Assembly (NCBI GenBank): GCA_025062325.1
Contig: JANXAL010000136.1
Location: 1 to 36,476, forward strand
Source of the DNA: Roseiflexus sp.
GTDB lineage: Bacteria > Chloroflexota > Chloroflexia > Chloroflexales > Roseiflexaceae
Length of the DNA stretch: 36,476 nucleotides
Direction: 5' to 3'
Positions 35,572 to 36,476 of the stretch are shown in pieces. Within the stretch, counting starts at the first letter, position 1; each line of letters opens with the position of its first letter. The notes beneath the pieces are model-generated. The model saw only the letters and a list, made by a program, of their open reading frames with translations. It was not told the DNA's origin and did not search any database. The translations under genes were made by a program, and so were the position numbers.

Positions 35572-36150
35572 TCACCTAGGTTTGGAATGGTTTCGGTCAT
35601 TTTTCCATTTTGCGGGGTTCCTGGCAATATAATGACGAACGATTTGCAGGTCGCGTTCATTATGAATGATACGATCATAAAAACGTGCCTGCCATCCGAA
35701 CCCTGTGTATCCGTTATGGTTGCACCAATACGAGACAGCAGATTTGTACGAACGAATAATGGCGCCCAATGAACCCGCCCGCGGGGATGTGTGCGCCATA
35801 GGGTTGTCGGGAGCGCGCGGCGGCGCGGGCGACGTAGAGACGTTGCAATGCAACGTCTCTACGTCGGTGTTGGGGGGTTCCAAAATCACCACGATCCCAT
35901 GGATATGATTGGGCATCACCACGAACGTATCGATTGCCACGTTTGCCGTCGTGTGTTGGGGGATTTGCACCCAGTAATCGCGGGCGATTTCGCCAATGGG
36001 CGACAGACGCACAACGCCGTTTTCCACCGCGCCGAAAAACATCTGGCGGTTGCGCGTGCAAATGGTGACGACATACCAACCGGCGCTGCTATAATCCCAT
36101 CCGCGCAGGCGAACGGTTTCGATGCGATATTTGCCTTTGAACAGGGTCAT
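35572..36150 (-). CDS. REP-associated tyrosine transposase (RAYT, Y1/IS200-like HUH enzyme)
   Basis: A 192-residue single-strand transposase of the RAYT type. From the ATG at 36150: the family start FKGKYRIETVRLRGWDYSSA, WYVVTICTRNRQMFFG, the HUH metal motif HIH in VVMPNHIHGIVVI (residues 82-84), a variable loop (about 91-124), GSLGAIIRSYKSAVS with the likely catalytic Tyr135, and the C-terminal WQARFYDRIIHNERD followed by RHYIARNPAKW. A longer frame to 36219 adds 23 residues unlike the family. No Shine-Dalgarno is seen. The variable loop residues 95-107 are encoded by a perfect 37-base palindrome (35830-35866). REP-like palindromes lie on its 5' side at 36276-36340. Such enzymes are thought to mobilise REP elements. 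Confidence 0.88.
   Translation of the reverse strand: MTLFKGKYRIETVRLRGWDYSSAGWYVVTICTRNRQMFFGAVENGVVRLSPIGEIARDYWVQIPQHTTANVAIDTFVVMPNHIHGIVVILEPPNTDVETLHCNVSTSPAPPRAPDNPMAHTSPRAGSLGAIIRSYKSAVSYWCNHNGYTGFGWQARFYDRIIHNERDLQIVRHYIARNPAKWKNDRNHSKPR
35830..35866. repeat. perfect 37-base REP-like palindrome inside the RAYT gene
   Basis: Arms of 18 bases (35830-35847 and 35849-35866) are exact complements around a central A. The core TTGCAATGCAA is the same as in the palindromes at 36281-36340. It lies in frame in the transposase gene and encodes residues 95-107. Confidence 0.9.
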
Positions 36151-36275
36151 GGTATTGTCTGGTGGTGGATGTAGGGGCAGGATGCCGGGTGAACGGATGC
36201 GTTGATGTATGCCGTTCACAGAATATTACCGTGCGTCGTTCGAAAACGATACGATGCGCGGTGCGGCGGATGATT

Positions 36276-36340
36276 GGCATTGCAACGCCGCGGCACGACG
36301 GCGTTGCAATGCCACGGGGGACAGCGTTGCAATGCAACGC
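36276..36340. repeat. cluster of REP-like palindromes at the 3' end of the enoyl-CoA hydratase gene
   Basis: An inverted pair with 15-base arms (36276-36290 and 36299-36313, 8-base spacer) is followed by a 17-base palindrome GCGTTGCAATGCAACGC (36324-36340). All contain the GTTGCAA core. They lie between the RAYT start and the stop codon of the enoyl-CoA hydratase, 3 bases from that stop, so they may also act as its terminator hairpin. Confidence 0.8.
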
Positions 36341-36342
36341 CG

Positions 36343-36476
36343 CTACGTGATGTTTTTGTCCAATGCCCATGCCGGGGAACGTTTTTCGATGAAGGCGTCG
36401 ATCCCTTCCTGGGCGCACGGTTCCATCATGTTGCACGCCATCGTCTCCCCTGCCAGCCGGTAGGCGTCGGCGATGC
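36343..36476 (-). CDS. enoyl-CoA hydratase/isomerase family protein, C-terminal end only
   Basis: The last 44 codons before a TAG at 36345-36343; the rest lies beyond the window. The readable end (IADAYRLAGETMACNMMEPC, then AQEGIDAFIEKRSPAWALDK) is typical of the crotonase superfamily C-terminus, where EGI.AFIEKR.P.W is highly conserved. The exact substrate cannot be read from this piece. It lies next to the 3-HP cluster but on the opposite strand and behind the RAYT element. Confidence 0.8.
   Translation of the reverse strand, partial: IADAYRLAGETMACNMMEPCAQEGIDAFIEKRSPAWALDKNIT

Follow-up and report, generated by a model that had tools for sequence, protein, structure and literature searches.

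Quentin et al. 2018 (PMC6006769) described in-frame REPs lying within the tnpAREP gene, between the HuH and Y motifs, as a predominant feature of TnpA_REP subclass 2.4 that is unique to it; the subclass corresponds to RAYT group 4 (Bertels et al. 2017, cited in that paper). The definition of this subclass includes an 8-aa insert at the end of helix B, together with the motifs NH[IFV]H, WQ and YIxNNP (PMC6006769). The same study attributes little effect to the REP insertions, and rates, frame or length statistics and an orthologue comparison are absent from its main text; a literature search for later work on the in-frame REPs of subclass 2.4 found none. GTAG-tagged REPs and REPtrons, as well as REPs within other ORFs, are described by Di Nocera et al. 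2013 (PMC3733652), and TnpAREP proteins bind GTAG-footed single-stranded DNA hairpins, cutting the DNA adjacent to them (Corneloup et al. 2021, PMC8266576). A subclass in which the enzyme gene contains its presumed substrate, at a fixed size and in a preferred reading frame across phyla, provides a direct handle on the long-term association between RAYTs and REPs and on what RAYTs may do for their hosts.

The window analysed here, a 36,476-nucleotide stretch of Roseiflexus sp. DNA, carries a gene that is a TnpA_REP (RAYT), probably of the subclass 2.4 type (Table 1). Its product matches the NCBIfam profile NF047646 (REP-associated tyrosine transposase) with an E-value of 3.6e-13 and 49.6 bits, a score below the curated cut-off of 80. 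The E. coli RAYT/TnpAREP bound to a REP hairpin (4er8) is the only solved relative recovered by sequence profile, and it is also the best fold match of an AlphaFold2 model with a mean pLDDT of 86. As in other RAYTs, an HUH motif and a single tyrosine are combined in a Y1 fold, and NHIH and Y174 show little or no variation in alignments; from knowledge of the family, we take Y174 to be the catalytic residue of the active site. A second RAYT-like gene is present in the genome of the window in broken form (L011/L013; G000:C76:3884-4494).

The window gene shares with subclass 2.4 the NHIH form of the HUH motif, the WQ motif, the YIxxNP pattern and a variable insert of low pLDDT between beta-3 and helix C. 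It also shares the double-foot GTAG...CTAC REP, located in frame between HuH and Y, that this subclass carries across scattered phyla. There is no difference in kind, the tyrosine motif reading YIARNP against the published YIxNNP, one residue apart. Because in-frame REPs are already published for subclass 2.4, the window gene adds a member and not a kind; the rates, the regularity of frame and length, the orthologue comparison and the compensatory variation reported below are new. Compared with E. coli TnpAREP and its Y/Z REPs (PDB 4er8; PMC8266576), the fold, the HUH motif and tyrosine, and the GTAG-footed hairpin substrate (putative for the window RAYT) are alike, whereas the E. coli system has single-foot, bulged REPs, no REP within the gene and a short segment joining beta-3 to helix C. 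The palindromic elements of Rickettsia (RPE), cited in PMC3733652, resemble the present case in being palindromic repeats placed in frame within ORFs. Unlike the window REP, they are present in many unrelated genes. They are also longer and, to our knowledge, have no link to a RAYT.

Table 1. Positions of the RAYT gene, its motifs and the associated palindromes in the window
Feature	Position	Strand	Content or basis
RAYT / TnpA_REP transposase, 192 aa, subclass 2.4-like	35572..36150	-	Family profile; sequence-profile and fold match to 4er8
Tyrosine Y174 (YIARNP)	35629..35631	-	Invariant in alignment
Variable loop, beta-3 to helix C, residues 90-116	35803..35883	-	pLDDT ~50-60
Perfect palindrome, 18-bp arms and 1 central base	35830..35866	-	Codons 95-107 = TDVETLHCNVSTS
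29-bp double-foot REP, GTAGAGACGTTGCA(T)TGCAACGTCTCTAC	35834..35862	-	Kept in orthologues, repeated across the genus
HUH motif MPNHIHG, residues 79-85	35896..35916	-	(Nearly) invariant in alignments
Second upstream hairpin, also containing GGCGTTGCAATGCC	36274..36314	-	Inverted repeat and fold
Upstream single-foot REP, GTAG then stem GCGGCGTTGCATTGCAACGCTG	36321..36346	-	Sequence, inverted repeat and fold

The palindrome consists of two 18-nt arms (35830-35847 and 35849-35866), which an inverted-repeat scan of the window finds to be 100% complementary across a 1-nt spacer; chance alone would not be expected to yield so perfect a pair of arms in 36 kb. It is in frame within an ORF whose probable ATG lies at 36150, and its core is the 29-bp double-foot REP, GTAGAGAC...GTCTCTAC. 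The predicted RNA fold reaches -30.4 kcal/mol (z -8.2), and the hairpin is also predicted for single-stranded DNA of both strands. Within the AlphaFold2 model, the pLDDT minimum falls at residues 100-106, inside the stretch encoded by the palindrome, and the whole loop between the HUH strand and helix C is predicted to be disordered; being unstructured, the loop would tolerate the palindrome. The earlier note had described a perfect in-frame palindrome in a RAYT gene, located in a variable loop past the HUH motif and having a core in common with palindromes upstream. That description is borne out on each point: the arms pair completely, the encoded residues fall within the predicted disordered loop, and TTGCAATGCAA recurs at 36327-36337.

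The TTGCAATGCAA core recurs in hairpins located 120-200 bp upstream of the gene, one of which is GTAG-footed. Together with the scattered copies, this upstream element gives the gene the flanking, genomically repeated GTAG-footed REPs that are typical of RAYTs. Copy counts are based on pattern searches, which detect ~8-10 extragenic, scattered near-copies of the 29-mer in the genome of the window (G000), where the count at up to two mismatches is 8, and none with a reversed control; the congeneric genomes have 2-31 scattered copies each. The earlier note had tied its proposal to a recurrence of the arm sequence elsewhere in the genome, and the 29-mer does recur. Three copies examined (L116, L117 and L120) are intergenic and near gene ends. 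In G340-G342, scattered copies often lack the GTAG foot through paired changes (GTAC...GTAC, GAAG...CTTC) and are still palindromic; the in-gene copies, unlike these, retain GTAG.

This arrangement resembles the published GTAG REPs and REPtrons (PMC3733652) in its GTAG foot, its palindrome within the 20-40 bp range (29-bp core, 37 bp in all), its extragenic copies just past stop codons and its REP-flanked RAYT. It differs in having a REP inside the RAYT gene itself and in its low number of copies in the window's genome. Because high copy number, a defining feature of the GTAG REP superfamily, is absent from this genome, the scattered family is termed REP-like in numbers and REP in structure.

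Variation among the scattered copies preserves the stem. Specifically, 23 of the 44 two-mismatch copies in the genus change both partners of one base pair to a complementary pair, against 0.5 expected, although the 44 are not fully independent and comprise eight distinct variants. Independent pairs with two perfect stems were excluded as proof of compensation, since they had been selected for perfect stems. Compensatory double changes at single base pairs are likewise predicted by hairpin-templated correction (quasipalindrome template switching), which would perfect any near-palindrome and need neither selection nor transposition, and the many perfect cores found among homologues (below) also follow from it. 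As the explanation of the in-gene palindrome this process is nevertheless unlikely, because it leaves unexplained the recurrent location, the GTAG foot, the length of 28-29 bp and the link to scattered copies.

The gene occupies the same place in two congeneric genomes, adjoining the same downstream gene, and the coding sequence outside the palindrome is 83-84% identical among the orthologues. In the three orthologues (the window and the two others), no stem base varies (28 of 28 identical) and the sole difference lies at the unpaired central base, whereas the rest of the coding sequence has 76% invariant columns, and 61% at codon position 3. At gene-average rates, 28 invariant stem columns have a probability of ~5e-4. 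The stretch after the HUH codons is as invariant as the stem, which makes the stem conservation suggestive and not unique. The orthologue in G342 (L235; G342:C72:16760-17334) is a pseudogene, with W18 changed to TAG and a 5-nt frameshift in the loop, and its palindrome is still perfect. The orthologue in G341 (L236; G341:C6:23889-24485) has, next to its REP, an additional partial one that is also in frame. G341 is also the genome with the most scattered copies (31 at up to two mismatches).

Several of these features are in line with passive insertion, in essence the interpretation given by Quentin et al. 2018 (PMC6006769). Under it, REPs mobilised by the RAYT would land preferentially near its own gene, and within the gene only in-frame insertions into a flexible loop would survive, with no function and no maintenance. 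The predicted disorder of the loop, the perfect copy inside the G342 pseudogene, and the extra partial REP in G341 together with tandem repeats in loops all agree with such an origin, and the conservation of the stem above the gene average in the three orthologues argues against it. The further evidence on this rival comes from the homologues.

The best 80 relatives in the genome collection belong to Bacteroidota, Cyanobacteria, Desulfobacterota, Chloroflexota, Patescibacteria and others, and in most of these 80 the same loop contains a perfect palindrome, the cores being different. A loop-blind survey was carried out with a model from which the loop had been removed, so as to avoid selecting for the palindrome; it covered 301 genomes of the window's phylum (Chloroflexota) and 148 of Bacteroidota, the phylum of Runella defluvii. 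Loop ends were set by anchoring on the W and Y motifs, and each palindrome was scored by subtracting two points per mismatch from the number of matches; hairpin loops could span no more than 6, and the threshold was a score of at least 10. At this threshold the loop contains a palindrome in 35 of 85 genes of the window's phylum (41%) and in 45 of 65 of Bacteroidota (69%), whereas ~0.2% of codon-shuffled loops in both samples reach even a 10-bp palindrome (0-0.2%). Outside the loop, palindromes are rare: in the window's phylum one precedes the loop in 1 of 85 genes and follows it in 2 of 85, and in Bacteroidota the corresponding counts are 0 and 1 of 65. Stems scoring at least 12 comprise 67 different cores. 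Chance, or a codon choice dictated by the protein, is rejected as an origin on the codon-shuffle null and on the residues of the homologues, and its probability is negligible. The earlier note had regarded homologues encoding the same residues with non-palindromic codons as the sign of such an origin; the homologues instead encode different residues with different, palindromic codons. The palindrome looks kept or renewed and not accidental, and the counts show its presence to be the usual state and not an oddity.

The element is also regular in size and frame. Among the 92 genes with a recognisable double foot, its length is 28 bp in 67 and 29 bp in 17. The foot is read in frame 0 (V-E-T or V-G-A) in 77 of these genes and in frame 1 (R-D or R-G) in 15, and none of the 92 uses frame 2, in which it would read a TAG stop. 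An insertion of 28-29 bp and nothing else would shift the frame, as neither length is divisible by 3. Passive insertion does not account for this fixed length or for the 77:15 frame bias. Palindrome density bears on it in both directions, amounting to 3.3 per kb in the loop, 0.8-1.1 in the 300-bp flanks and 0.2 further out: enrichment of the flanks is expected of REPs landing near their own gene, and a 3-4-fold excess in the loop over the flanks is not. In addition, ~40% of genes have no palindrome and changes of state are frequent, as insertion without function would predict. On a tree of 238 loop-free proteins, presence and absence require at least 39 changes, against a mean of 76 for shuffled labels, so the palindrome is inherited, yet gained and lost often, and an element that changes state this many times is not indispensable. 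Given the pseudogene copy and the many empty loops, passive insertion stays a serious rival, although a doubtful one.

A regulatory role has also to be weighed, in which the stem-loop in mRNA or DNA would slow ribosomes or RNA polymerase, or would be a binding site through which the RAYT curbs its own synthesis. The very stable predicted mRNA hairpin and the conservation above the gene average are consistent with it. Against these stand the many functional-looking homologues that have no palindrome and the lack of any conserved companion signal, and regulation as the main explanation is accordingly very unlikely. The coupling of expression to element mobility that the earlier note had envisaged, by self-targeting or autoregulation, has no direct support.

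Collectively, these observations lean, with modest confidence, towards the palindrome being a resident copy of the RAYT's own presumed double-foot REP substrate, held in frame in the disordered loop and renewed or retained there. When the DNA becomes single-stranded during replication or transcription, the palindrome would fold into a GTAG-footed hairpin, which the RAYT may bind and cut. The in-gene copy would preserve the linkage of enzyme and substrate when the gene is transferred. Selection could keep this copy perfect, as could recurrent renewal in which the scattered copies act as its source or are seeded by it. More tentatively, and short of an even chance, the in-gene REP may be a conserved functional part of a RAYT subclass and not a passive insertion. 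It would then serve as a built-in cognate substrate, either a master copy or a linkage device and possibly also a self-binding regulatory hairpin. Compensatory changes would replace its sequence over time and leave the stem preserved. The earlier note had set a REP inserted into a tolerant loop against a gene carrying its own substrate; these are not exclusive, and both stand, since both fit the predicted disordered loop and the scattered REP family. Because the in-gene element can be recoded synonymously with the protein unchanged, a role in the spread of REPs or in expression is cleanly testable.

The correspondence between internal core and scattered REPs was followed in 15 genomes. The core GGTTCGCGAACC is scattered in 4 of 4 genomes whose RAYT carries it, against 1 of the 11 others. 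Three sampled genomes hold scattered copies of the core GGGTTTGAAACCC although their sampled RAYTs lack it, and in G152 no copy occurs outside the gene; a third core has its sole copy, in the gene, in two genomes. The exact core is confined to the RAYT gene itself in G262, G278 and G152. A one-to-one cognate rule, in which the internal core equals the scattered REPs, holds only in part, clearly for GGTTCGCGAACC and failing for GGGTTTGAAACCC, and this incomplete match counts against the resident-substrate interpretation.

Two further observations concern the placement of repeats within these genes. The near-identical RAYTs L161 and L162 carry the same palindrome and differ in the adjoining tandem VTNG repeats, and on these repeats the loop is a hot spot for slippage. 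L040, L075, L093 and L050 have palindromes at a second site in the gene, such as the stretch that separates helix C from the W motif or the part preceding HUH.
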